A DNA stretch of 35,299 nt from Gemmata sp. GTDB taxonomy: Bacteria; Planctomycetota; Planctomycetia; Gemmatales; Gemmataceae. The first letter of the stretch is position 1. Every line of letters starts with the position of its first letter. Location of the stretch: positions 1 through 35,299 of the forward strand of contig JANWYJ010000092.1 in the NCBI GenBank assembly GCA_025055115.1, written 5' to 3'. The position numbers were made by a program, and so were the translations under genes. Positions 12,020-24,347 of this stretch are shown here, piece after piece. The notes below the pieces were generated by a model that saw only the letters and a list, made by a program, of their open reading frames with translations, did no database searches and had not been told where the DNA came from.

Positions 12020-12086
12020 CGATCGCGGCGCGTGGGGGTCGGTCCCCCGTCTCCGCGGTCAGGTTGCGTGACAAAGGATGGTCACG

Positions 12087-13577
12087 ATGTCGGACCTCAT
12101 TGAACTGGTGCATCGCCTGGGTTCGCCCCACGTGCTGGTGATAGGCGATGTGATGCTCGATCGCTATGTGTGGGGCGATGCGGAGCGGATCAGTCAGGAA
12201 GCGCCGGTGATCCTGCTGCGGGCCGACCACCGCGAAGAACGCCTCGGTGGGGCCAGCAGTGTGGCCACCATGCTCCAAGCTCTGGGAGCGCGGACTCAGC
12301 TTGTCGGCGTTGTCGGTGACGATAGCAACGGTCAGCACACCCGGCAGATGCTCGACAGCCTGGGGATCGACGCCGAAGGCGTTCTGACCACCAACGACCG
12401 CCCCACCACGGTGAAAGAACGCTACATCGGCCGAGCCCAGGCCCGCCATCCGCAGCAGATGATCCGTGTCGATTACGAAAGCCGTGATTCCCTTCCCGCC
12501 GACCTCGAACAGCGCCTCGCTAGCATTTTGACAACGAAAATCCGCCAGGCCGACATCATTCTTATCAGCGATTACGACAAAGGCGTTTGCACCCCCGGCT
12601 TGCTGCGGACGGCGATCACCCGGGCGCAGGCCCGCGGCATCCGCATTCTCGCCGACCCAACGCGCGGCGGCGACTATGCGAAATACCGTGGCTGCTCGAG
12701 CATCACTCCCAACCGCCTGGAAGCCGGATTAGCGACGCGGCGGACCCTTCGCACCCCCGAGCAAGCTCTGGACGCCGCCGCCGAACTGTGCGCCACCCTG
12801 CAACTGGAAGCGGGCATCGTCACCCTCGACAAAGACGGCATGGCCTTCGCTCACCGCGACGGCCGCCGGCACCTTTTCCCCACCCGGCCACGTCAGGTTT
12901 ACGACATCACCGGAGCCGGGGACATGGTGATGGCCACGCTCGGCCTGGCCTTGGCTGCCGGTGCCGATTACGACGCCGCGATTCGTTTGGCCAACATCGC
13001 CGGCGGCCTGGAAGTCGAAAAAATCGGTGTGGCCACGGTCACACGGCAGGAAATTCTGGCCGACCTGCTCCATGCCCCCTTCGCTTCTGCCCACCGGCTG
13101 CCGAGTGCGGCCAAAGTCGTCAGCCTGGCGCAACTGGTCAACGAACTGGATGCTCGCCGCCGTAACGGCCAGACAATCGCCTTCACCAACGGCTGTTTCG
13201 ATGTCCTCCACGCCGGGCACGTTCAGTACCTGGCTGAAGCCCGCCGCCAGGCCGATTGCCTCGTCGTTGCTCTCAACAGTGATGACAGCGTTCGGCGCCT
13301 CAAAGGGCCGACGCGGCCACTCAACCCGGTCGAAGCCCGCGCGCTGGTGCTCGCCAGCCTGCACGATGTCGATTACGTCACCATTTTCGCCGAGTCTACC
13401 CCGGCGGCGCTGATCGCCGCAGTACGACCCAATGTGCTGGTCAAAGGGGCCGATTATCGCAAGGAGGACGTCGTCGGCGCGGCCTTCGTCGAAAGCTACG
13501 GTGGCCGCGTCCATCTGGCCGAATTCCACTCAGGCTTCTCGACCACGCAACTGATCGAACGGATGAAAGCGGCATGA
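12087..13577 (+). CDS. hldE: Bifunctional heptose-7-P kinase / heptose-1-P adenylyltransferase
   Basis: Makes the ADP-heptose precursor of the LPS inner core. The N-terminal half is a PfkB/ribokinase-type kinase (GDVMLDRYVWG near residue 20, GGASSVATML, and the catalytic anion-hole motif DITGAGD at about 273-279). The C-terminal part, from about residue 345, is a nucleotidyltransferase with TNGCFDVLHAGHVQYL (HxGH at about 374-377). Total 496 aa, normal for fused HldE. ATG 12087 is preferred over ATG 12078 because AAAGGA lies 8 nt before it. The next gene overlaps its stop by 4 bp. The phosphatase (GmhB), isomerase (GmhA) and epimerase (HldD) of the pathway are not in the window. Confidence 0.95.
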   Translation: MSDLIELVHRLGSPHVLVIGDVMLDRYVWGDAERISQEAPVILLRADHREERLGGASSVATMLQALGARTQLVGVVGDDSNGQHTRQMLDSLGIDAEGVLTTNDRPTTVKERYIGRAQARHPQQMIRVDYESRDSLPADLEQRLASILTTKIRQADIILISDYDKGVCTPGLLRTAITRAQARGIRILADPTRGGDYAKYRGCSSITPNRLEAGLATRRTLRTPEQALDAAAELCATLQLEAGIVTLDKDGMAFAHRDGRRHLFPTRPRQVYDITGAGDMVMATLGLALAAGADYDAAIRLANIAGGLEVEKIGVATVTRQEILADLLHAPFASAHRLPSAAKVVSLAQLVNELDARRRNGQTIAFTNGCFDVLHAGHVQYLAEARRQADCLVVALNSDDSVRRLKGPTRPLNPVEARALVLASLHDVDYVTIFAESTPAALIAAVRPNVLVKGADYRKEDVVGAAFVESYGGRVHLAEFHSGFSTTQLIERMKAA

Positions 13578-14635
13578 TGACGCGCATTGCCCTCTTTTTG
13601 CCCAACTGGGTGGGCGACGTGGTGATGGCCACACCCGCAATTCGCGCGGTCCGGAACACTTTTCCCCACGCCGAACTGATCGCGGTGTGCAAACCGTATG
13701 TGGCAGACGTACTGGCAGGTAGCCCGTGGTTGGCGAAAACGATTCTGGCCGACAAACGCGGCCCGCGTCCGCAGCGGCTGTGGGCCGTAGCTCGCACGTT
13801 GCGGGCCCAGCCGATTGATGCCGCTCTGCTCTTCCCCAACTCCTTCCGTACGGCGCTACTCGCCTACCTCGGCGGTGCCCAACGCATCATCGGCTCGGCC
13901 CGCTACGGCCGCTCGTGGCTACTGACCGACCGCCTGAAGCCCACAACCGACGCCCAAGGTCGCTTCGTCCCCACGCCCATCATCGACGACTACAACCGCC
14001 TGGCCACCACTTTGGGTACCCCCGACCCCGGGTACCGTCTGGAACTGTTCACCACGCCGGCCGACGAGGCTGCTGCCGAGGCCCTCTGGCAACGCTTCCA
14101 CCTGGCGCGCTACCCCCGCGTGGTCGCCTTCAATCCCGGAGCCGCCTTCGGTGCCGCGAAATTCTGGTGCCACAACCACTTTGCCCAACTGGCCCGCTGG
14201 CTCACAACACGGCTGGATTGTGGCATACTGATTCTCTGTGGACCTTCCGAACGAGCACTAGCCCGACACATTGCCGAGGCCAGCCGCAGCTTGCATGTTT
14301 TCCCCCTCAGCGAAGCGCCGCTGTCGCTGGGCCTGACGAAAGCCGTGATCCGGCGTTGCGATCTTCTGGTCACCACCGATAGCGGCCCGCGGCACTTTGC
14401 GGCTGCTTTCCACCGCCCCGTGGTGTCGCTGTTTGGCCCCACCCACATCGCCTGGACACACACCTACTACGCGCAGGAAATAGCCCTGCAGAAGCGTTTG
14501 CCGTGCGGCCCGTGTCAGAAGCGCATCTGCCCCGAAGGCCACCACCGCTGCATGCGGGAATTGACCCCCGAAGAAGTCTATGCCGCCGCGCACCGACTGT
14601 TGGCCGGACGTTACGAGGTGCCCCATGCGGCTTGA
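13574..14635 (+). CDS. waaF: LPS heptosyltransferase, GT family 9
   Basis: 353 aa. Starts MMTRIALFLPNWVGDVVMATPAIRAVRNTFP, the typical GT9 N-terminal Rossmann start. It contains FNPGAAFGAAKFWCHNHFAQLA and the C-terminal donor site TTDSGPRHFAAAFHRPVVSLFGPTH, where D and H positions are typical for ADP-heptose transferases. A cluster of Cys near the end (CGPCQKRICPEGHHRCM) is common in WaaF-type members. The expected role is transfer of a heptose from ADP-heptose to the growing core at the cytoplasmic face. ATGA overlap with hldE and an 11-bp overlap with the next gene argue for one operon. WaaF (heptosyltransferase II) is preferred over WaaC, which is not decided. Confidence 0.9.
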   Translation: MMTRIALFLPNWVGDVVMATPAIRAVRNTFPHAELIAVCKPYVADVLAGSPWLAKTILADKRGPRPQRLWAVARTLRAQPIDAALLFPNSFRTALLAYLGGAQRIIGSARYGRSWLLTDRLKPTTDAQGRFVPTPIIDDYNRLATTLGTPDPGYRLELFTTPADEAAAEALWQRFHLARYPRVVAFNPGAAFGAAKFWCHNHFAQLARWLTTRLDCGILILCGPSERALARHIAEASRSLHVFPLSEAPLSLGLTKAVIRRCDLLVTTDSGPRHFAAAFHRPVVSLFGPTHIAWTHTYYAQEIALQKRLPCGPCQKRICPEGHHRCMRELTPEEVYAAAHRLLAGRYEVPHAA

Positions 14636-16100
14636 CATCGTCCCGCCCCGAGAGCGGCTGCCGGCCGTGCAGCCACCTTCCGCGCCGCCCTGCCTCCCCC
14701 CAGACCCCGACGGCGTTCTGACCATCAATCCCGCCTTCGCGCAGTTATTGACCCAGTGGGGTTTGACCACCGCAACCGCCTTTCTGCAGCTCAGCGGCGA
14801 AATCGTCAGTGGCCATCCCGATCGGCACGTGGTCCGCGTCGAATTCCCGGGGACCGAACGGGTCTTCTACCTGAAACGCCAACATATCGTGGGTTGGCGG
14901 GAAAAGCTCCGCAATTGGTGGGCTGGTTTTGGTTGGGTTTCCCGCTGCCAGCGCGAAGGGCAACTGCTCGAGCAACTGAATGCCTTGCATCTGGCTGCAC
15001 CCCGATGGGTTGCCTACGGTGCTGCCCGCGGCCAGGCCTTTTTGCTGCTGGAAGAAATTCCCAACGCTGTTGAACTGCGGCAGCTGCTTAGCACCGACCG
15101 CCTCACCCCAGCGCAGCAGGATCGAGTGGCGGCCACCCTCGGGCAGGCATTGGCCGCCGTTCATGGCGCGGGTTTCTCCACGCCCGACCTCAGCGCCAAG
15201 CACATTTGGATCAATCCCGACACCGGCGCCGTCACGTTCCTCGATTGGCCCTCGGCCCGGCGCGGCCGACTGCGTACCGCCGAGCGCCTCGCCACCCTCG
15301 CGGCCATCCATGCGTCGCTAGCCGACGGACTGGCCCCACCGCGGCAACGTCTGCGGATGCTTCGCGCCTATGGCGAAATTTCTGACGTGGCGCGAATCGA
15401 GATGCTGGCCCGGCGGCTCGGTCGGCGGCGCTCGATTCGCGACCAACGGCTGGCTTCGACTATGACTTCACCTCCAGCCCCCACACAGCGGTTGGTGTGG
15501 TTGGCGGGGGAAGCGGTGTGTGCCATTCCGGAAATCGCCGCCGGCTGGCCGCAGCCGGTGATCGGTCCGCCGTTTTACGGCGCCAGTGCGATTGCGGAGG
15601 AGCGTTGTCTGCGCTGGGCGAATCGTGAGGCGGTGCTGGTTCGTGGCTGTTCTGTAGCGCCTTGGGGGCGGCTGTGGGCGTGGTGGCGAGCGGTGCCGTG
15701 GCGTTCGCCGGGTGTGACGGCCGCGCGGGTGCTGTTTCACCTCGAACGCTACGGGCTGGCGGCGCCACGTTTGCTCGCCTTCGGGCAACGCTGGGTCAGC
15801 CGCAGCCGGGCCGAGTGGTTCACCCTATACGAGCCGGTCCGCGGTGTTCCCCTCGGGGAGGCGTGGACCTGGGCGACGGCGAAGCAACGGCAACGCATCC
15901 GTGGGCGACTCGTTGCGTATTTGCAGCGTTTGCACGATGCGGGTCTGGTCGTCGTCGATCCGGCCCAGGCCTTCACCGTAAAAGACGACGATACCATAGC
16001 GCTGGCCAGACCGTTGGCGGTGCGCATCGTTCGCCAGGTGCGGGCCACGCGGCGGCAGCGCGATCTGCGGATGGTCTTTCGCTGGCTGGGAATTGTTTAA
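14625..16100 (+). CDS. Double kinase-fold protein of the LPS kinase family
   Basis: 491 aa from ATG 14625 (ACGAGG upstream). The first module (about residues 60-240) resembles the WaaP/Kdo kinase fold: a VFYLKRQH strand with the ATP-binding-type Lys, FLLLEEIPNAVELR hinge, GFSTPDLSAKHIWI catalytic loop (Asp near 188) and FLDWPSARRGR in place of the DFG segment. The second module (about 285-491) repeats the pattern in weaker form: WFTLYEPVRGVPL hinge, then AGLVVVDPAQAFTV and DDTIAL, with the usual His/Asn residues missing. So one active-looking and one degenerate kinase domain are fused. It lies between waaF and a WaaP-like gene, so core-sugar phosphorylation is inferred. The stop (TAA) is in the same frame as the following gene. 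Confidence 0.78.
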   Translation: MRLDIVPPRERLPAVQPPSAPPCLPPDPDGVLTINPAFAQLLTQWGLTTATAFLQLSGEIVSGHPDRHVVRVEFPGTERVFYLKRQHIVGWREKLRNWWAGFGWVSRCQREGQLLEQLNALHLAAPRWVAYGAARGQAFLLLEEIPNAVELRQLLSTDRLTPAQQDRVAATLGQALAAVHGAGFSTPDLSAKHIWINPDTGAVTFLDWPSARRGRLRTAERLATLAAIHASLADGLAPPRQRLRMLRAYGEISDVARIEMLARRLGRRRSIRDQRLASTMTSPPAPTQRLVWLAGEAVCAIPEIAAGWPQPVIGPPFYGASAIAEERCLRWANREAVLVRGCSVAPWGRLWAWWRAVPWRSPGVTAARVLFHLERYGLAAPRLLAFGQRWVSRSRAEWFTLYEPVRGVPLGEAWTWATAKQRQRIRGRLVAYLQRLHDAGLVVVDPAQAFTVKDDDTIALARPLAVRIVRQVRATRRQRDLRMVFRWLGIV

Positions 16101-16136
16101 CGGGCTATCCCCTCGGAGGCTTTTTTTCGTAAACGC

Positions 16137-17105
16137 ATGAACGCCAATTGCCCTCTTCGCTCCCGCACCCCTCTGACGCGGTTAGCTCCCGAACTGGGCG
16201 ACCCGGTCTCGGCTTTCTGGCCACGATTACTGCGCGGCGTGCGGCTTTTGCGCAAACAGGCCGACTGGGACCGGTTCGCAGGGCCAGACTGGCCGGAACG
16301 GATCATGCATCTGCCGCTGACCGATCGCGAACACCGCAAACAAGGGCGGTCGATCGGGCGGAAAATCTTCACCGAGGGAGGGGATACGCTCAGCGTCTAT
16401 CTGAAGCGGCACTTCCGGTTATCGTGGTGGCGCGGCTGGATGGCGACACTGTTTCCCAACGCGGCGTGGTCGCCGGGGTTGCAAGAGTGGTTGAAGCTGC
16501 GGTGGGCGTTGGCCGAGGGTTTCCCCGTACCGCGGGCGGTCGCGGCCGGTCAGTTCGTGGGTCCGTGGGGGAAATTGCAGAGCTTTTTGGCGGTGGAGGA
16601 GCTGCACGGCATGCTGCCGCTGCATGAGGCGATTCCGCTTGCGTTGGGGCGGTTGGAGGGGCGGGCTTTTCTGCGTTGGAAGCGGGGATTGGTGGCCGAA
16701 TTGGCTCGTTTGGCCCGAGAATTGCATATCCGGTCCGTCTTCCACAAAGATTTCTACCTGTGCCACTTCTACATCCCCGAAACCCTGACCCGCACTATCC
16801 CCGCGGATTGGAGCCATCGCGTCATTCTCATCGACTTGCACCGCTTGGCCCGGCACACGCTGACACGGATCGTCTGGCAGGTGAAAGACCTGGCCCAACT
16901 GTGTTTTTCCTCCGACATCGCCGGGATCACGGCCCGCGATCGTCTCCGCTTCTGGAAATATTACCGGGCGCAGTGGCCGCGCGAGCGCACGCCGGGGCAT
17001 TGGCTGGTTCCCCTGGTGCGGTGGAAAACGCAATTGTATGTGCGGCACCGTCGCCGCCGGCCGGACAACATTGTGGCCTTTCAGGACCATCGGAGAGCCG
17101 CGTAA
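16137..17105 (+). CDS. waaP: WaaP-like LPS core heptose kinase
   Basis: 322 aa. Shows the family signatures FHKDFYLCHFYI (His203, Asp205; compare RDxYICHF in WaaP) and VILIDLHRLARH (IDLHR, metal-binding Asp), with LSVYLKRHF as the N-lobe Lys strand and FLAVEELHG as hinge. The likely reaction is ATP-dependent phosphorylation of an inner-core heptose. The start ATG 16137 has no good Shine-Dalgarno at normal distance (a GGAGG lies about 19 nt upstream, before a run of seven T). The frame is open right back to the preceding stop at 16098-16100. The stop overlaps the next start as TAATG. The gene name is by family resemblance; substrate not proven. Confidence 0.85.
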   Translation: MNANCPLRSRTPLTRLAPELGDPVSAFWPRLLRGVRLLRKQADWDRFAGPDWPERIMHLPLTDREHRKQGRSIGRKIFTEGGDTLSVYLKRHFRLSWWRGWMATLFPNAAWSPGLQEWLKLRWALAEGFPVPRAVAAGQFVGPWGKLQSFLAVEELHGMLPLHEAIPLALGRLEGRAFLRWKRGLVAELARLARELHIRSVFHKDFYLCHFYIPETLTRTIPADWSHRVILIDLHRLARHTLTRIVWQVKDLAQLCFSSDIAGITARDRLRFWKYYRAQWPRERTPGHWLVPLVRWKTQLYVRHRRRRPDNIVAFQDHRRAA

Positions 17106-18274
17106 TGGACATTGCACTGTGTTACGAAAGCGTATTACCGGCGCGGGGGGGAGCCGAGACGTATATTGCCGACTTGGCCCGTCGGCTGGCCCAAGATGGC
17201 CACGCGGTGCACCTGTACGCCGCGCGCTGGGATACCAACGCCCTGCCGGCGGCAACACACTTCCACCGGGTGGAAGTACCACAGTGGCCGCGGTTTCTGC
17301 GGCCGTGGCGGTTTGCGACCGCGTGTATACGGGCTTTGCAGCACGCTCGGCATGATGTCAGCATCGGTTTCGACAAGACCTGGGGCCAAGATGTGCTGTA
17401 CCCGCAAGGAGGGCTGCACGCCGCCAGTGCTGTTCATAATTTGTACAAATACCCAGATATGTTTACCCGTACACTGGCGGCTGTCGGCAAATGGCTGGAT
17501 CCGGCGGCTTGGTCGTTTGCCTGGCTGGAACGCCGGCAGTACCTCGGCGACCAGCGGCCACTCGTGGTGGTCAATAGTGCGATGGTGCGGCGGCACTTTG
17601 AGGAGTTTTATGGGATTCCGGCCGAGTCGGTGCGTGTGGTTCACAGTGCGATCGACCCGGGGCGGTTTGTTGCGGACGATCGCTTGAAACGCCGCCAGGA
17701 CGAACGTCAGCGCTGGGCCGTAACGTCCGAAGAACCGGTGGCCCTGTTTGTGGCGATGAACTACCGGCTGAAAGGGCTGGCCCCCCTGTTGAAGGCTTTC
17801 GCGCTGCTACCACCCCAACAACCGCTGAAACTGGTTGTGGTCGGGCATCCGAACGTCGGCCGCTACCAACGGCAGGCGCAGCGGTGGGGCGTGGCGGATC
17901 GGGTGCGCTTTCTGGGCCACCGGGCCGATCCGCGCGATTGCTACTTCGCTGCGGATTTCCTGGTTCACCCGACGTTTTACGATCCGTGTTCGCTGGTGGT
18001 TTTGGAAGCCTTGGCGTGCGGATTGCCGGTCATTACCAGCCGCTACAACGGCGCCAGCGAATTGCTCAGCCCGCCGAAGGATGGCCTGGTCATCAACGAT
18101 CCGCACAACGCCGCGGAGCTGGCGGCGGCTCTGGTGCACTTCAGCGATCCGGCGGTGCGGCGTGAGGCGGCGCGGGCCGCACGGCAAACGGCCTCGAAGT
18201 GGACTTTTGAGCATCACTACCAAGCACTCTTGCGCATCTTCCAGGAACTGCGGCACACCCAACAAGCGGCCTGA
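17105..18274 (+). CDS. waaG: WaaG-like glycosyltransferase, GT family 4
   Basis: 389 aa. Begins MDIALCYESVLPARGGAETY, the GT4 N-terminal domain with a GG loop for the donor or acceptor. HVHLYA-type strands and SIGFDKTWGQDVLYPQGGLH follow, as in WaaG (core glucosyltransferase I). The C-terminal donor domain has VALFVAMNYRLKGLAPLL, VVVGHP and the E-x7-E motif in DPCSLVVLEALACGLPVITS...GASELL. It follows the WaaP-like kinase with a TAATG overlap, the usual waaG-waaP pairing. It should add the first hexose (or another sugar) of the outer core. Last gene of the LPS run; the downstream gap of about 170 bp shows no clear terminator. Confidence 0.88.
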   Translation: MDIALCYESVLPARGGAETYIADLARRLAQDGHAVHLYAARWDTNALPAATHFHRVEVPQWPRFLRPWRFATACIRALQHARHDVSIGFDKTWGQDVLYPQGGLHAASAVHNLYKYPDMFTRTLAAVGKWLDPAAWSFAWLERRQYLGDQRPLVVVNSAMVRRHFEEFYGIPAESVRVVHSAIDPGRFVADDRLKRRQDERQRWAVTSEEPVALFVAMNYRLKGLAPLLKAFALLPPQQPLKLVVVGHPNVGRYQRQAQRWGVADRVRFLGHRADPRDCYFAADFLVHPTFYDPCSLVVLEALACGLPVITSRYNGASELLSPPKDGLVINDPHNAAELAAALVHFSDPAVRREAARAARQTASKWTFEHHYQALLRIFQELRHTQQAA

Positions 18275-18443: not shown

Positions 18444-19535
18444 ATGGCACACTATCCGGATGTGGCGATTTTCGGCGGGGGAATCATTGGCCTGACCTGC
18501 GCCTATTATCTGGCGCACGAGGGTGTCGCGGTGGCGGTGTACGACCGCGGCGCGCTGGGCCAAGAAGCCTCGTGGGCGGGAGCCGGGATTGTGCCCCCCG
18601 GTAACCCGGCCCGGGCGGCTTCGCCCCTCGACCAGCTCCGCGGCCTTGGCGCCGAGCAGTTTCCTCGTCTGAGTGCCGAACTGCGGGAACTGACCGGCCT
18701 CGACAACGGTTACCGCCGTTGTGGGGCCATCGAGTTTCTCTCGGCCGCCGAGGCCGAGGTGCCGAATCTGTGGGCGGCCGAAGGGATCGCCTTCGAGCGC
18801 TTGTCGGTCACTGCCGCCCGGCAGTTGGAGCCTCTGGGCGAGATTCCCGGGGAGCCGTATCTGTTGCCCGACTGTGCCCAGGTCCGCAACCCCTGGCACC
18901 TGCGGGCGTTGATCGCCGCCTGTCAGCGACGGGGCGTGAAGCTGTACCCGCACACGACGATTCGTGACGACTGGTTTACACGGCCCAACCGCATTGCGGC
19001 TCGCTATGTCATCGCTGCCGGCGCGTGGACGAACGACATTGTTGGTCGGCTGTGGCAGTTGCCGGACCTTCACCCAGTGCGGGGGCAGATCGCGTTGCTG
19101 CGGGGCGCCAGTTGTTCGCGGATTGTCATGGTCGGCAAGCGGTATTTGGTCCCCCGCGGCGATGGTTTGACCTTGGTTGGCTCGACGGAGGAACCCGAAG
19201 CGGGCTTTGTGAAAGAAACGACCAGCGACGCCATCGCGGCGTTGGTCCGCTTCGCGCAGCAGCTGGTCCCGGTTCTACAACAGGCGACTTTGGAGCGGGC
19301 GTGGGCCGGGTTGCGACCGGCGAGTGGCGATGGGGTGCCGTATATTGGTCCGGTTCCGGGGTGGCCGGCGGTGGTGGTGGCCACGGGGCATTTCCGGGCG
19401 GGGGTGCAACTGTCGATTGGCACGGCGCAGGTGGTCAGCGATATGCTGCTGGAGCGGCCACCGCGGATCGCGGTCGAAGCCTTCGCCTTGACCCGGGCCC
19501 CACAACCACCGCGGCTGAGCGCTTTCCGCTCCTGA
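18444..19535 (+). CDS. thiO: FAD-dependent glycine oxidase-like protein (DAO family)
   Basis: 363 aa. The N-terminus has the FAD-binding dinucleotide loop in VAIFGGGIIGLTCAYYLAHE. The block EASWAGAGIVPPG is characteristic of ThiO/DAO proteins, as are YVIAAGAWTNDI, HPVRGQIALLRG and the C-terminal AGLRPASGDGVPYIGPVPG with VATGHFRAGVQLS. ThiO oxidises glycine to iminoacetate for thiazole formation in thiamine synthesis. No thiS, thiG or other thi gene is in the window, so a general D-amino-acid or glycine oxidase role is also possible. It opens the run thiO-GTPase-GTPase-CHAD, with 31 bp to the next start. The frame is open far upstream inside waaG, but that part is not homologous; ATG 18444 is chosen. 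Confidence 0.85.
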   Translation: MAHYPDVAIFGGGIIGLTCAYYLAHEGVAVAVYDRGALGQEASWAGAGIVPPGNPARAASPLDQLRGLGAEQFPRLSAELRELTGLDNGYRRCGAIEFLSAAEAEVPNLWAAEGIAFERLSVTAARQLEPLGEIPGEPYLLPDCAQVRNPWHLRALIAACQRRGVKLYPHTTIRDDWFTRPNRIAARYVIAAGAWTNDIVGRLWQLPDLHPVRGQIALLRGASCSRIVMVGKRYLVPRGDGLTLVGSTEEPEAGFVKETTSDAIAALVRFAQQLVPVLQQATLERAWAGLRPASGDGVPYIGPVPGWPAVVVATGHFRAGVQLSIGTAQVVSDMLLERPPRIAVEAFALTRAPQPPRLSAFRS

Positions 19536-19566
19536 GGCCATGCGATCCGGGGAAAACGAGAGATTC

Positions 19567-21429
19567 ATGGAACCGACTGAACATCGTTTGACCATCAGTC
19601 AACTGGCGGAAGATTTTCGCTGGCTCGAAGACCACTGCCGCCGCCAGCCAGACCTGGTGGCGCTGGCGGGGCGTTTGCGCCTGGCCAGTGCCCTGACGCG
19701 CAACGTGGTGGGGCCGTTTCTGGAAGGGCAGCCCGCGCGGCCCCTGCACATCGCCGTTGTGGGCGGCGCGGGCACGGGCAAAAGTACCGTGGTCAACTTT
19801 CTGGCCGGAGCCGTGGTCGCCGAAGCGAACCCGCAAGCGGGCTACACCCGCCATCCCACCGCGTTTCTGCCCCCCGGTCCGAGCTTCCCATGGCCGAGTT
19901 TTCTAGGTTTTCTCGGCCCCCTGCAACGCCTCAGCGACGACCAACCGGCCAACACCGATCGCGATGTGTATCAGGTGAAGCGCATCCCGGCCCGTGAGGG
20001 GGCCGAGCCACACCCGCTGGCCGGTTGCGTCATCTGGGATTGCCCCGACATGACGACCTGGGCCGCCGAGAACTATGTCAACCGTCTTTTGGAAGTGGCC
20101 GGCCTAGCGGACGTTGTCGTTTATGTCGCCAGCGACGAGCGCTACAACGACGAGGTGCCGACGCAGTTTCTGCATCTGTTGGTCAGCGCGGGCAAGGCGA
20201 TTGTGGTCGTTCTCACCAAGATGCGGGCTGCTGATGCTGCCGCCTTGGTAGGGCATTTCCGCCAGGAAGTGCTTGGTCGGCTGCCGGTGTCGCCCAGTGG
20301 GGCTATTCCTCCCATCCCCGTCATGGCATTGCCTCAACTGACACCCGATGAACGCCGCGACCCGGCCGGAGTCGCCGCCCCGCATCGCGCGGCGCTGGTC
20401 CAGGCCATCCGGGCGGTCTGCCCATCCGAGGACGCGGCACGGACACGCACGGTGGTGAACGCGGCTCGCTACCTGAGCGTTGCGGGCGAAGGGTTGCTCG
20501 ATGTTGCCCGTAGCGACCTGGCGCAACTGGAGGCGTGGAAGGCGGCCGTGGCCGCCGGTCAGCGCGACTTTGAAGAACGCTATCGACGGGAATTCCTCAG
20601 TGGCGAGCGGTTTGGCCGCCTTGATATTTACGCGGAGCGCCTGCTGGAACTTCTCGAACCGGCTGGGGCCGGGCGCATTGTCAGCCAACTTCTTTGGCTG
20701 TTGCGGTCGCCCTATCGGTGGCTGCGCGACTCTCTGTATGCCCTGGTGGTTCGGCCCGAGGTGCTGGGTGTGCCGGAAAAAACTGTGGTGGAGGCATCGT
20801 TCCAAAGTTGGCTCGATTTTCTTCAGGCCGAAGCGCTGCGCAAGGCGGGCACGCACCCGCTGTGGAAGCAACTGGCCACGCGCTTTGCGGCGGAGTTGGC
20901 CCCGCAGGCCCGCGAACGGTTTACCCACAATTTCCGCACTTTCGAGGTTCAGCAAAGGCAGGATGTCGAGGCCGCCGGGCAAGCGCTGATCGCCCGCTGG
21001 GAGAAGAATCCAGCGCTCCTGTACAGCCTGCGCGGCGGGAAATGGGGGCTGGATGTGGCCATCATCGCGGCGGTGACCTATTACACCTGGCCCCCGGGCT
21101 GGCTGCTGCTGTTGATTCCCGTGGGAGTCGCCCTGACGCATCAGTTGGCCGAATGGTTCATTCGGTGCCTCGTCGAAGGCACCCGGCAACGTCTGCGGGC
21201 GGAGCGCGAGGCCCTCCTGACGGCCACACTGACCCAACCCCTGGCCGACTGGCTGACGCAGTGGCCCTCCACCGGTGGTACCTCCTTGGAGAAGCTGCAA
21301 CAGGTGCTCCACCGCGTGCCCGTGGCGATCCGCCGTCTGGAACAGCGCGTCTCCGAGCGGGTCACAACGGCGTTTCCGCCCCCGGCTGCCTCGCCCTGTC
21401 CTGTACCCTCCGTGCCCAAAACCGCATGA
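19567..21429 (+). CDS. Membrane-anchored dynamin-like GTPase A
   Basis: 620 aa from ATG 19567 (GAGAG just upstream; ATG 19540 is an alternative). G1/P-loop GGAGTGKST at residues about 66-74; G3-like IWDCPD at about 157-161, with C-P instead of the usual x-P-G; G4 candidate LTKMRAAD at 216-223, where the specificity Asp of N/TKxD is replaced by Arg. A helical region follows (about 300-480). Hydrophobic segments at about 495-527 (VAIIAAVTYYTWPPGWLLLLIPVGVAL) suggest a membrane hairpin, then another helical stretch. The layout G domain-helical stalk-membrane hairpin-helix fits bacterial dynamin-like/YfjP-type proteins. The stop overlaps the next GTPase start by 4 bp. The exact role is unknown; membrane remodelling or signalling is inference. 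Confidence 0.8.
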   Translation: MEPTEHRLTISQLAEDFRWLEDHCRRQPDLVALAGRLRLASALTRNVVGPFLEGQPARPLHIAVVGGAGTGKSTVVNFLAGAVVAEANPQAGYTRHPTAFLPPGPSFPWPSFLGFLGPLQRLSDDQPANTDRDVYQVKRIPAREGAEPHPLAGCVIWDCPDMTTWAAENYVNRLLEVAGLADVVVYVASDERYNDEVPTQFLHLLVSAGKAIVVVLTKMRAADAAALVGHFRQEVLGRLPVSPSGAIPPIPVMALPQLTPDERRDPAGVAAPHRAALVQAIRAVCPSEDAARTRTVVNAARYLSVAGEGLLDVARSDLAQLEAWKAAVAAGQRDFEERYRREFLSGERFGRLDIYAERLLELLEPAGAGRIVSQLLWLLRSPYRWLRDSLYALVVRPEVLGVPEKTVVEASFQSWLDFLQAEALRKAGTHPLWKQLATRFAAELAPQARERFTHNFRTFEVQQRQDVEAAGQALIARWEKNPALLYSLRGGKWGLDVAIIAAVTYYTWPPGWLLLLIPVGVALTHQLAEWFIRCLVEGTRQRLRAEREALLTATLTQPLADWLTQWPSTGGTSLEKLQQVLHRVPVAIRRLEQRVSERVTTAFPPPAASPCPVPSVPKTA

Positions 21430-23363
21430 GTCACAACACCACCACGGCCGTCACCACCCCGCCCGCGGCGGAGGCTCCGCCGGTGCCCCCGGGTCTTGCC
21501 CCCCCCGCGTCGCCCCCCCCTGACGAGCCACCGCTTCTGCGCACGCTCGCCCCGCTTTTGCGTGGGCTGGAACGGCAATTGCGCCAGCTCCTCGATAGCC
21601 GCCGCCATGACCCGCTGACCCTGCTGCAACGGGCCGAACTGGAAGGCCTGGCCGACGACTTGCGCCGGCACGCCGACGCCCTCGATGTCGAGAAACCCTT
21701 GCTCGTCATCATGCTCATGGGCGGTACCGGGGTCGGCAAATCGACATTGCTCAACGCCCTGGCCGGCGCGCCGATTGCCGCGGCGTCGTTCACCCGGCCC
21801 ACGACACGCGATCCAGTGGTCTACTTCCACCAGAGTGTGAAACCCGAGCGGCTCGACCCCGCCTTGCGCCTGTGCCGTCTGGTCCAACACGATCGCCCTG
21901 CCCTCGAACAGAAAGTCATCGTCGATACCCCGGATCTGGACTCCAACGACCTGAGCAACCGCGACAAACTCCGCGCCCTATTGCCGGTGGCCGATATCGT
22001 CCTCTACGTGGGTTCGCAGGAAAAATATCACGATCGCCTGGGCTGGGAGCTCTTCAAGGAGCAACGGCAACGCCGGGCTTTCGCCTTCGTTCTGAACAAA
22101 TGGGACCGCTGCCTGACTGGCGAGCAGGGTCTGCGACCCGATGAAGACTGGCTGCGCGATCTGAAGGCCGAAGGCTTTGAGAAGCCGCTCCTGTTTCGCA
22201 CCACCGCCCAATTGTGGCTCGACGCCGCGCAGAACCACCCCGGCCCGGGGCTGCCCCCCCCGCCCCCCCAGTTGCCGCAAGGGGAACAATTCGCCGATTT
22301 GCGGAATTGGTTGGAACTGGGCCTGACCCGATTGGAAATTGAAGCAGTCAAAGCCCGCGGGGTGGGGCAACTGCTCGTGCATCTCCACGACGCGGTGGCC
22401 GCCGCACGCCCCCCCGAGCTGACCGCGCCAGCCGAGCGCGTTCAAGCGGCCTGGCAGGCCACCCTAGCCGCCGAGGCCGACATCCAAGCCGATGTTCTGG
22501 TCAGCACCCTGGAGCCGTATCAGACCGAAGTGGAGCACCATTTCAGCGTGGAAGGGCAAATGCCGTTTCGCGGCTTGATGGGTGCTTATCTGAAGCTCAC
22601 GACGCGGATGCGCTATGCCGGCAGCACACTCCGCGACCGGCTGCCGTTGAGTGGCTGGAAAGGGCGACTGCGGGGTAACCGTATCGAAACCCCCGCACGC
22701 TGGAACCTGGATGAATTTATCCACGAGTGCACCCGGACCGCCGGTGAACGAGTACTCGATCAGCGCACCACCGCCCTGATCAACCGCTTGCTCATCGATG
22801 CCGAGATGAAAGGTTTCCCGCTGGCCCTTTTGGCCGAAGCGACGAAAAGCGCTGGCCGGTTGGAAGATCGGGAACAGTGGACACAAGCCGTCATCGACGC
22901 TCTGGCGGAAATCGAACGGCAAGCCACCCACCCGACCGGTTGGCGGCGGTTGCTCCGCGCCACCCTGACGCTCCTGGGCAACACTGTGCCCGAGATTGCG
23001 CTGGTGGCCACCGCCGCGTGGATTTTGTGGAATTTCTTCATCTATGGCGACATCCCGGACTTCTTCCGCATGGCGTTGATCGTCGTGATCCCCCTTGTCG
23101 TCATCATCGTTTTTCATCTGCTCATCATACTGCTTCTGCCGGTGCGCTGGCCCGCCATTCGCCATCAGTTTCGTGCAGAATTGGGGCAGCGGCTGGCGGC
23201 GGCACTGGAGCGGGTGTATCTGGCGATTCCTCAGCAACTGGCCGCGGCCATCGCGCAGGAACGTCAACAGGTGGAACGGTTCCTCACGGAGGTGAAACAG
23301 GTCCAGGAGTGGCTCGCCGCGCGGCAACAAGCGGCCCGCATCGCGGAGCTGTATGGAAATTGA
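21426..23363 (+). CDS. Membrane-anchored dynamin-like GTPase B
   Basis: 645 aa. Proline-rich N-terminal 35 residues, then helices. G1 GGTGVGKST at about 99-107, a Thr-rich switch I (SFTRPTTRDP) near 121-130, G3 DTPDLDS at 167-173, and a canonical G4 NKWD at 224-227. A proline run near 277-284 follows the G domain. The helical middle contains LMGAYLKLTTRMRYAG. Two membrane spans lie at about 521-540 and 547-571 (VIPLVVIIVFHLLIILLLPV), then a C-terminal helix (QERQQVERFLTEVKQVQEW). Architecture parallels GTPase A, but sequence identity outside the G motifs looks low, so the pair may act as a hetero-oligomer. ATGA overlap with A; 27 bp before the CHAD gene. Confidence 0.85.
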   Translation: MSHNTTTAVTTPPAAEAPPVPPGLAPPASPPPDEPPLLRTLAPLLRGLERQLRQLLDSRRHDPLTLLQRAELEGLADDLRRHADALDVEKPLLVIMLMGGTGVGKSTLLNALAGAPIAAASFTRPTTRDPVVYFHQSVKPERLDPALRLCRLVQHDRPALEQKVIVDTPDLDSNDLSNRDKLRALLPVADIVLYVGSQEKYHDRLGWELFKEQRQRRAFAFVLNKWDRCLTGEQGLRPDEDWLRDLKAEGFEKPLLFRTTAQLWLDAAQNHPGPGLPPPPPQLPQGEQFADLRNWLELGLTRLEIEAVKARGVGQLLVHLHDAVAAARPPELTAPAERVQAAWQATLAAEADIQADVLVSTLEPYQTEVEHHFSVEGQMPFRGLMGAYLKLTTRMRYAGSTLRDRLPLSGWKGRLRGNRIETPARWNLDEFIHECTRTAGERVLDQRTTALINRLLIDAEMKGFPLALLAEATKSAGRLEDREQWTQAVIDALAEIERQATHPTGWRRLLRATLTLLGNTVPEIALVATAAWILWNFFIYGDIPDFFRMALIVVIPLVVIIVFHLLIILLLPVRWPAIRHQFRAELGQRLAAALERVYLAIPQQLAAAIAQERQQVERFLTEVKQVQEWLAARQQAARIAELYGN

Positions 23364-23390
23364 ACATGCGTTCCCCATGGGGATACGATC

Positions 23391-24347
23391 ATGGCCGAAG
23401 GGAAATGGATCGAAGGCTTGACAGCCAACATGTCGGTGGCCACCGCGGCTCAGCGGGTCCTGAGCGCGCGCCTGAGCGTAGTTGATCATTATCTGCCGCT
23501 AGCGTGCGACAAACCCTACGACGATGTCGAACACGTTCACCAATTGCGGGTGGCGACTCGGCGGGCGAATGCTGCCTTGCGCGTTTTTGCCGCGACCATA
23601 CCCCCCAAACTCTACAAAGAGGCCAAACAAACGTTGCGCGCGCTACGGCGGGCTGCGGGGGAGGCTCGCGATTGGGACGTGTTCTTACTGGCCTTGCCAA
23701 CGATCAGCGCTTTCCGTGCCCCGCGGACCAAGCCAGCGTTGGATTTTCTGATCGGTTACGCGTGCGGTCAACGGGCCGCAGCCCAAGAACGACTCACCAC
23801 GGCCGCCACAGAAGTAGGGCCGCGCTGGGCCGAACTGGCCCGCGAACTGCCAGAGCGTGTCCGGGCGGCGACAGACCATGGCAGCCCCCCACCGGCGACA
23901 CTGGGCGAACTGGCCACCCAGCAACTGGCCGAACGGATGCGCACCTTCACCGCGGATGTCGAAGCCCACCCCAAGACCCCCCCCGAACTCCATGCGCTTC
24001 GCATCGCTGCCAAACGCTTGCGTTATGCGATCGAAATTTTTGCCGATTGTTTCCCGCCGTTGCTCCGAGACACCATCTACCCCGCGGTCGAAACGGTGCA
24101 GGAATTGCTGGGCGGCATCCAAGATGCCGTGGTCGCTCTGGAGCGACTGCGCCAGGTTCGTGGGATGTTACAAGCCATCCTCCCCGCCCAGTGGCATCGC
24201 GTGCGCCCCGGCTTCGACGCTCTCAGCGCGGCTCTGCGGGCACGCCTACCCGCGGGCAAAAAGGCCTTCAACAGCTGGCGGAAAGACTGGCTGACGACCA
24301 TCCGGGACCTCAAGCTTGCCGTCGCCGCCGCTCTCACAACAGCCTAA
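23391..24347 (+). CDS. CHAD-domain protein
   Basis: 318 aa, essentially one CHAD domain. The two repeated helical motifs are VHQLRVATRRANAALRVF (about 49-66) and LHALRIAAKRLRYAIEIF (about 200-217), each rich in His, Arg and Lys on one helix face. CHAD domains bind inorganic polyphosphate through this basic pore. Often they are fused to CYTH triphosphatases; none is fused or adjacent here. No signal peptide or membrane segment is seen. It closes a same-strand run with two dynamin-like GTPases and thiO, which suggests but does not prove a common task. A palindrome (24380-24395) about 30 bp after the stop may end transcription. Confidence 0.9.
   Translation: MAEGKWIEGLTANMSVATAAQRVLSARLSVVDHYLPLACDKPYDDVEHVHQLRVATRRANAALRVFAATIPPKLYKEAKQTLRALRRAAGEARDWDVFLLALPTISAFRAPRTKPALDFLIGYACGQRAAAQERLTTAATEVGPRWAELARELPERVRAATDHGSPPPATLGELATQQLAERMRTFTADVEAHPKTPPELHALRIAAKRLRYAIEIFADCFPPLLRDTIYPAVETVQELLGGIQDAVVALERLRQVRGMLQAILPAQWHRVRPGFDALSAALRARLPAGKKAFNSWRKDWLTTIRDLKLAVAAALTTA

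Follow-up and report, generated by a model that had tools for sequence, protein, structure and literature searches.

The window analysed here, 35,299 nucleotides of the forward strand of contig JANWYJ010000092.1 from Gemmata sp. (assembly GCA_025055115.1), is an entire contig (C57) of a 4.93 Mb assembly that is 98% complete. On its plus strand it carries two adjoining genes for large GTPases, called A and B in the following, and a gene for a stand-alone CHAD protein (P0003). GTPase A occupies positions 19567..21429 (620 aa) when read from the ATG at 19567; an alternative in-frame start would be the ATG at 19540. GTPase B (21426..23363, 645 aa) overlaps the stop codon of A with its own start as ATGA, and the CHAD gene (23391..24347, 318 aa) starts 27 bp past the stop of B. 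An earlier interpretation made from the letters alone, termed the sequence-only reading below, had described an operon of two unlike dynamin-type GTPases with a polyphosphate-binding CHAD protein; its reading frames and coordinates for the three genes were correct. Of 390 confirmed matches, the best 80 were used as named loci for comparison, and they represent the near end of the family. Among the matches listed, the nearest named locus belonged to an uncultured Gemmata metagenome-assembled genome, the B protein of which was 82% identical to that of the window.

The GTPase (G) domains of A and B aligned in BLASTP with 32% identity over 139 aa (E 5e-7), and comparison of the two profiles with hhalign gave a probability of 99.7 (E 4e-25) over 197 columns. 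The G domains share ancestry, which rules out A and B as unrelated families and does not agree with the low apparent similarity first ascribed to them. In Pfam, MMR_HSR1 was above its cut-off and the best match for both proteins. Dynamin_N, with a gathering score of 27 bits, was exceeded by window B (31.4 bits) and was found at E 0.001 or better in 71/71 B members and 14/55 A members. AlphaFold models were built from alignments of the window proteins and the named loci. Both contained long helices, with a pLDDT of 90.9 and a pTM of 0.81 for A and of 90.1 and 0.79 for B. In a Foldseek search the B model first retrieved the bacterial dynamin-like protein (BDLP) of Nostoc (2j68, E 4.8e-11), then the Campylobacter pair of dynamin-like proteins (DLPs; 5owv, rank 3), mitofusin 1 and IniA. 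The A model likewise first retrieved Nostoc BDLP (2j69, E 8e-8), followed by Drp1, OPA1 and dynamin and, at lower ranks, by IniA (11), the Campylobacter pair (14) and Fzo1 (31). In both predicted models, helices from the N and C termini come together as a neck packed with the G domain. In VIA alignments B matched Mfn1 (5yew) with a Z of 24.7 and a root-mean-square deviation (rmsd) of 3.6 for 319 aligned residues spanning positions 33-641 of the model, and A matched Fzo1 (9kfd) with a Z of 20.5 and an rmsd of 5.4 for 325 aligned residues spanning positions 2-599. Since both termini contribute to the neck, these matches take in nearly the full length of each protein.

Alternatively, A and B could be ribosome-assembly GTPases of the Era/Der type with fused helical membrane tails rather than dynamins, since MMR_HSR1 was the top Pfam match of both and the top NCBIfam matches were Der for A and Era for B. 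These NCBIfam matches, however, covered mainly the P-loop region and fell far under the cut-offs, nothing in that collection coming near a curated cut-off for either protein. Era-type G domains moreover reached a Z of only 15.8 with B and 15.7 with A in VIA alignments, below the scores obtained with mitofusin and Fzo1 over G domain and neck. On this fold evidence Era/Der membership was set aside, and we regard it as extremely unlikely. The predicted models and the fold search support the placement of both GTPases in the dynamin superfamily, and the dynamin-type identity given to them at first stands.

The nucleotide-binding motifs were largely those described from the letters alone: P-loops with GKST in both proteins (GTGKST in A, GVGKST in B), and at G4 the canonical NKWD in B only, with TKMR in A. 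The P-loop Lys-Ser, the switch Thr and the Asp of G3 were invariant in the aligned rows of both families (55/55 for A, 71/71 for B). The DCPD sequence at G3 had been taken for an alteration of A. In fact, G3 reads D-x-P-D in both proteins (DTPD in window B), one A row having S for P, which makes this form a feature of the family rather than a defect in A; an altered G3 special to A is ruled out. A further motif, S-x-E-[KR]-Y-x-D, followed G3 in A as well as in B, two A rows having Q for E.

In dynamin-like proteins G4 has the form (N/T)KxD, and dynamin itself carries T at the first position. B kept the N and the D of this motif in 71/71 rows, and none of the 55 A rows contained the Asp. The first position of A was occupied by T in 45 of the 49 planctomycete rows and by N in the 6 proteobacterial ones. 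Twenty further gammaproteobacterial pairs (L196-L215) showed NK in A throughout, with the Asp in 5/20, and in B an N in 20/20, a D in 19/20 and Q or H in place of the Lys in 20/20. The partners in these loci depart from G4 at different places, B at the Lys while A keeps NK. The motif after G3 was looser there too, with D for E in 7/20 A and 1/20 B proteins and N or T for S in 3/20 B proteins. Taken against the planctomycete rows, where the asymmetry at G4 is strict, it is looser in Gammaproteobacteria.

The distribution of the two genes was followed in 59 related genomes with orthologue thresholds that were set after inspection of the tables (E 1e-70 or better for B, E 1e-80 or better for A). 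B was found in 41 of these genomes and A in all 41. A alone passed its threshold in two further genomes, G022 and G049, and in the latter the neighbouring B was divergent (E 4e-32). Seven genomes (G006, G007, G019, G021, G030, G031, G034) kept both genes without A standing in the contig region ahead of B; the two genes of G019 are 9 kb from each other and on different strands. Gene order was tallied over 72 loci (L082-L153), those with too little flank being excluded (7 loci for A, 9 for CHAD, 27 for the ThiO-like gene considered below) and four whose titles name no planctomycete being retained (L099, L144, L146, L149). A was upstream of B in 50/65 testable loci, 48 times within 400 bp and twice at 1.1 and 2.2 kb. 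The same order was seen in all seven proteobacterial loci (L154-L160). Methylobacter belongs to the Gammaproteobacteria, and a sample of 276 genomes of that class contained B, at E 1e-12, in 22; 20 of these loci were fetched, and A immediately preceded B in 19 of them, while in the remaining locus it lay 2.4 kb upstream. Since the order recurs in Planctomycetota and Gammaproteobacteria, it is more than chance. The data support an evolutionarily stable heterotypic pair, A-B being the unit of evolution, and strengthen the pairing proposed in the sequence-only reading through the joint retention of both genes in 41/41 B-bearing genomes and through the recurrence of their order in a second phylum. 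A scan across the phylum with the B profile gave hits in 208/294 genomes at E 0.001, mostly weak matches such as would be expected from any GTPase, and in about 60/294, counted by hand, at E 1e-15.

Two observations concern relatives of the pair. More divergent tandem A-B-like pairs of about 610-650 aa were seen in other families of the class (L072, L073, L076, L077), retrieved with the first B profile, which had drawn in A sequences; they suggest that the A-B pair is older than the Gemmatales. In five Methylobacter/Methylococcaceae loci (L154, L155, L156, L159, L160) a DUF2959 gene (PF11172; L155:6637-7296) lies upstream of A-B. The assignment was made by Pfam for L155 and by phmmer for the others, L157 and L158 end too soon, and the gene was upstream in 1/20 of the further gammaproteobacterial loci. 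Its product is a candidate third partner in the Methylobacter/Methylococcaceae loci.

Bacterial DLPs usually come as at least a pair in operons according to PMC6104087, where DynA is presented as a head-to-tail fusion of two DLPs and the Campylobacter pair as a 2:2 tetramer, tetramerisation of which triggers GTPase activity, with tethering of liposomes. A and B resemble this pair, Cj-DLP1/Cj-DLP2 of Campylobacter jejuni (PMC6104087), in being encoded by two adjoining, dissimilar dynamin-like genes and in their predicted BDLP/mitofusin-like fold. They differ from it by a predicted membrane hairpin, by the D-x-P-D at G3 and by the non-canonical G4 of A. An N-terminal assembly domain of the Cj-DLP1 type was not noticed in either model, no test having been aimed at it. 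With Nostoc BDLP1 and mitofusin/Fzo1 the two proteins share, in the predicted models, a neck in which helices from both termini surround the G domain, and they have a predicted membrane segment placed among the helices of the C-terminal half, as those do; unlike these, A-B is a two-gene pair, and identity in the structural alignments was only about 11-17%. The hairpin of B, around residues 521-570, was clear, with hydropathies of 1.64 and 3.42 and two or more segments in 68/71 rows.

We consider it fairly likely that A and B, each as one subunit, together make up a heterotypic dynamin-like GTPase that is attached to the membrane and belongs to the BDLP/mitofusin type, and that the CHAD protein is separate and not needed for their core role. 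By analogy with the Campylobacter pair and from the predicted fold, A and B would assemble as a hetero-oligomer on the inner membrane, where GTP-driven contacts between G domains would tether, bridge or reshape the membrane. B would be the main GTP-hydrolysing subunit, and its partner A would handle nucleotide in an altered way. The CHAD protein, a separate and probable polyphosphate (polyP) binder, would stand beside B in many Gemmatales through inherited gene order.

A number of observations weigh against this interpretation. Window A scored 15.8 bits with Dynamin_N, under the Pfam cut-off of 27. Query-normalised TM-scores of both models were about 0.2-0.35, so that only the G domain and the neck are firmly matched and not the trunk; in the models, hinge angles or trunk may differ from those of known dynamin folds. 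The hairpin, which the sequence-only reading had placed in both proteins, held for B and was only marginal in A (around residues 499-532, hydropathies of 1.43 and 1.53), with two or more segments in 26/55 rows at the threshold used for B. The asymmetry at G4 is not absolute, as five of the 20 gammaproteobacterial A proteins have the Asp, and the B proteins of these 20 loci lack the Lys throughout and, in one case, the Asp. A was not beside B in 15/65 testable loci, and in G022, a genome that is 79% complete, A was present with no B detected. Finally, no biochemistry on the A-B family was found in the open-licence literature.

The fold would also suit membrane repair. Bacillus DynA has been proposed to seal or remodel damaged membrane during envelope stress or phage defence, and the A-B pair might serve a similar purpose at the inner membrane, like DynA or the Leo dynamins of PADLOC. 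The proteins are alike in being bacterial and dynamin-like, and there were weak PADLOC matches of B to LeoA and LeoBC (E 8.7e-7 and 6.7e-7), of A to LeoA (2.6e-4) and of the Methylobacter proteins to LeoA (A 1.4e-8, B 5.5e-8). The patchy occurrence of the pair in Gammaproteobacteria (22/276 genomes) would be in line with such a role. The best-matching stretches were, however, short parts of the Leo models: window A and B reached at most 26.8 bits, over stretches of 51-87 aa in models of 559-601, short of Leo membership, and the DynA model NF052648 gave an E of 0.15 for B. The wide presence of the pair in related genomes (41/59), with its order largely kept, also speaks against a role in envelope stress or phage defence, which we judge to be unlikely.

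The third gene had been recognised as CHAD, and this was correct (PF05235, E 2.1e-42, 146 bits); NCBIfam gave no match whatever for it. P0003 aligned to a solved CHAD structure, 6qv7_A, with an E of 1.3e-15. This entry is taken to be the Chlorobium protein CtCHAD of PMC6537752, the main text of which does not contain the entry code, because six published residues fit at one constant numbering offset. According to that paper, mutation of these six residues of CtCHAD weakens polyP binding. H50, R53, R57, R93, R211 and Y212 of P0003 align to them, and all six were conserved in 26/26 linked CHADs. P0003 is, as judged from these alignments, a probable polyP binder, and its initial description as a CHAD of polyP-binding type gains from the retention of all six contact residues. 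Stand-alone CHADs, or phosins, are often found in operons with polyP-metabolising enzymes (PMC6537752). P0003 is like them in having a CHAD domain in which the residues that contact polyP (H, R, R, R and R-Y) are conserved; unlike them, it adjoins dynamin-like genes, and the PPK1 gene of the genome is on another contig (C54). A CHAD match was present in 51/59 genomes, mostly as one copy, and PPK1 in 54/59.

CHAD was counted as linked when its end lay at most 2.5 kb from the stop of B on the same strand. It followed B in 28/63 testable named loci, mostly planctomycete, and by coordinates in 16/19 genomes of the same genus, which rules out an adjacency unique to this genome; the trio, for which the sequence-only reading had proposed a neighbourhood comparison, is not confined to the window. 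The distance was measured in 25 loci, and in 21 of these its aligned start was within about 130 bp of the B stop; the linkage to B was kept in four loci where A was not beside B (L083, L112, L124, L131). Together with the polyP-contact residues of the linked CHADs and the common occurrence of PPK1, this close association, which extends across deep branches of the B tree, would fit a single machine made of the three proteins, in which CHAD would hold polyP while the two dynamins fix polyP granules to the inner membrane or segregate them there. Four genomes, however, keep A and B without a detected CHAD (G019, G028, G040, G041); G019 and G028 have both polyP kinases, and in G040 (93% complete) and G041 (87%) PPK1 and PPK2 were undetected as well. 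In the 7 and the 20 proteobacterial loci no CHAD was found beside the pair, those genomes not having been searched for CHAD elsewhere. On the evidence of these genomes a CHAD required by the pair was rejected, and its inclusion as a necessary part of the system is not supported. CHAD has also apparently left the locus repeatedly, and, as shown below, another neighbour is linked more tightly to A. No literature on Gemmata with polyP granules was found among open-licence papers. We consider a polyP-anchoring machine of all three proteins very unlikely.

The history of the linkage was read from two trees. In the B tree, made by a quick method and with several long branches, linkage to CHAD was spread over deep branches and needed 15 changes among 61 labelled rows (27 linked, including the window, and 34 not), five unlabelled planctomycete and five proteobacterial rows being left uncounted. 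In the CHAD tree, which has few well-supported branches, several unlinked CHADs nested inside linked ones and others branched outside. This pattern fits an old B-CHAD linkage with repeated losses; repeated gains might also have produced it.

A ThiO-like gene was found beside A in 37/45 testable loci, i.e. in tighter linkage than that of CHAD to B. Since it is the commoner of the two linkages, neighbourhood alone is weak evidence for a shared function. It may be that ThiO, A-B and CHAD are together merely by old gene order, with CHAD functionally unconnected to the pair, an explanation that is compatible with the favoured one and for which we see the evidence as about evenly balanced. Besides ThiO, an unrelated gene for DNA polymerase III delta-prime was also kept: of 48 loci with 5 kb or more of downstream sequence, 9 contained it, always with CHAD. 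CHAD itself occurred in 19 of these 48 loci. Its linkage exceeds that of delta-prime, an observation against this explanation, and falls short of that of ThiO. Old gene order also cannot account for the recurrence of the A-B pair in a second phylum.

In the window the ThiO-like gene (18444..19535, plus strand, ATG start at 18444) encodes an FAD-dependent amine oxidase of the DAO family (PF01266, E 3.4e-59). Its best NCBIfam match was ThiO, TIGR02352, with 204.5 bits, under the cut-off of 250.8. The gene ends 31 bp before the ATG of A at 19567, or 4 bp before the alternative ATG at 19540, so that the tight co-directional run consists of four genes and starts here. The operon first proposed is thus confirmed as a tight run of A, B and CHAD on one strand, though it begins one gene earlier. 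Scans for promoters and terminators gave no usable operon boundary (1 promoter-like site vs 0.9 expected, 8 terminator-like sites vs 5.8 expected). The oxidase is probably an unrelated passenger. Further upstream on the same strand, positions 12078-18274 hold a cluster resembling those for the lipopolysaccharide core, with an HldE-like bifunctional heptose enzyme, a heptosyltransferase II above its NCBIfam cut-off, two Kdo/WaaP-type kinases and a GT4 glycosyltransferase. Downstream, on the minus strand, Pfam identified at 25309-29069 genes for DNA polymerase III delta-prime (PF13177), thymidylate kinase, a lipoyl-synthase-like radical SAM protein and LplA/LipB-type proteins. Parts of this block were retained at several CHAD-bearing loci.

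A more far-reaching scheme can be drawn, in which the pair would be a heterotypic dynamin of two phyla with oppositely specialised sites. A would have given up guanine recognition and be regulatory, nucleotide-free or ATP-using, and B would drive the cycle; in Gemmatales CHAD would have joined the cluster, coupling polyP state or granules to inner-membrane tethering and helping to shape the invaginated membrane. We hold this scheme to be highly unlikely.

In conclusion, the A-B pair is related to the bacterial dynamin pairs already known but is itself uncharacterised. A literature search confined to open-licence papers, judged by titles and abstract openings, found no study of it, and the terms dynamin, GTPase, GTP-binding, CHAD and polyphosphate are all absent from the main text of the Tuwongella immobilis proteome paper. 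New are the breadth of the family, the asymmetric G4, the motif shared after G3 and the recurrent CHAD neighbour in Gemmatales. Planctomycetes such as Gemmata are described as having heavily invaginated membranes (PMC8567305). The conserved, mitofusin-like dynamin pair, carried by the majority of the genomes sampled from the family, is a direct candidate for shaping these membranes, and its asymmetric G4 gives a handle on the division of labour within a heterotypic dynamin.

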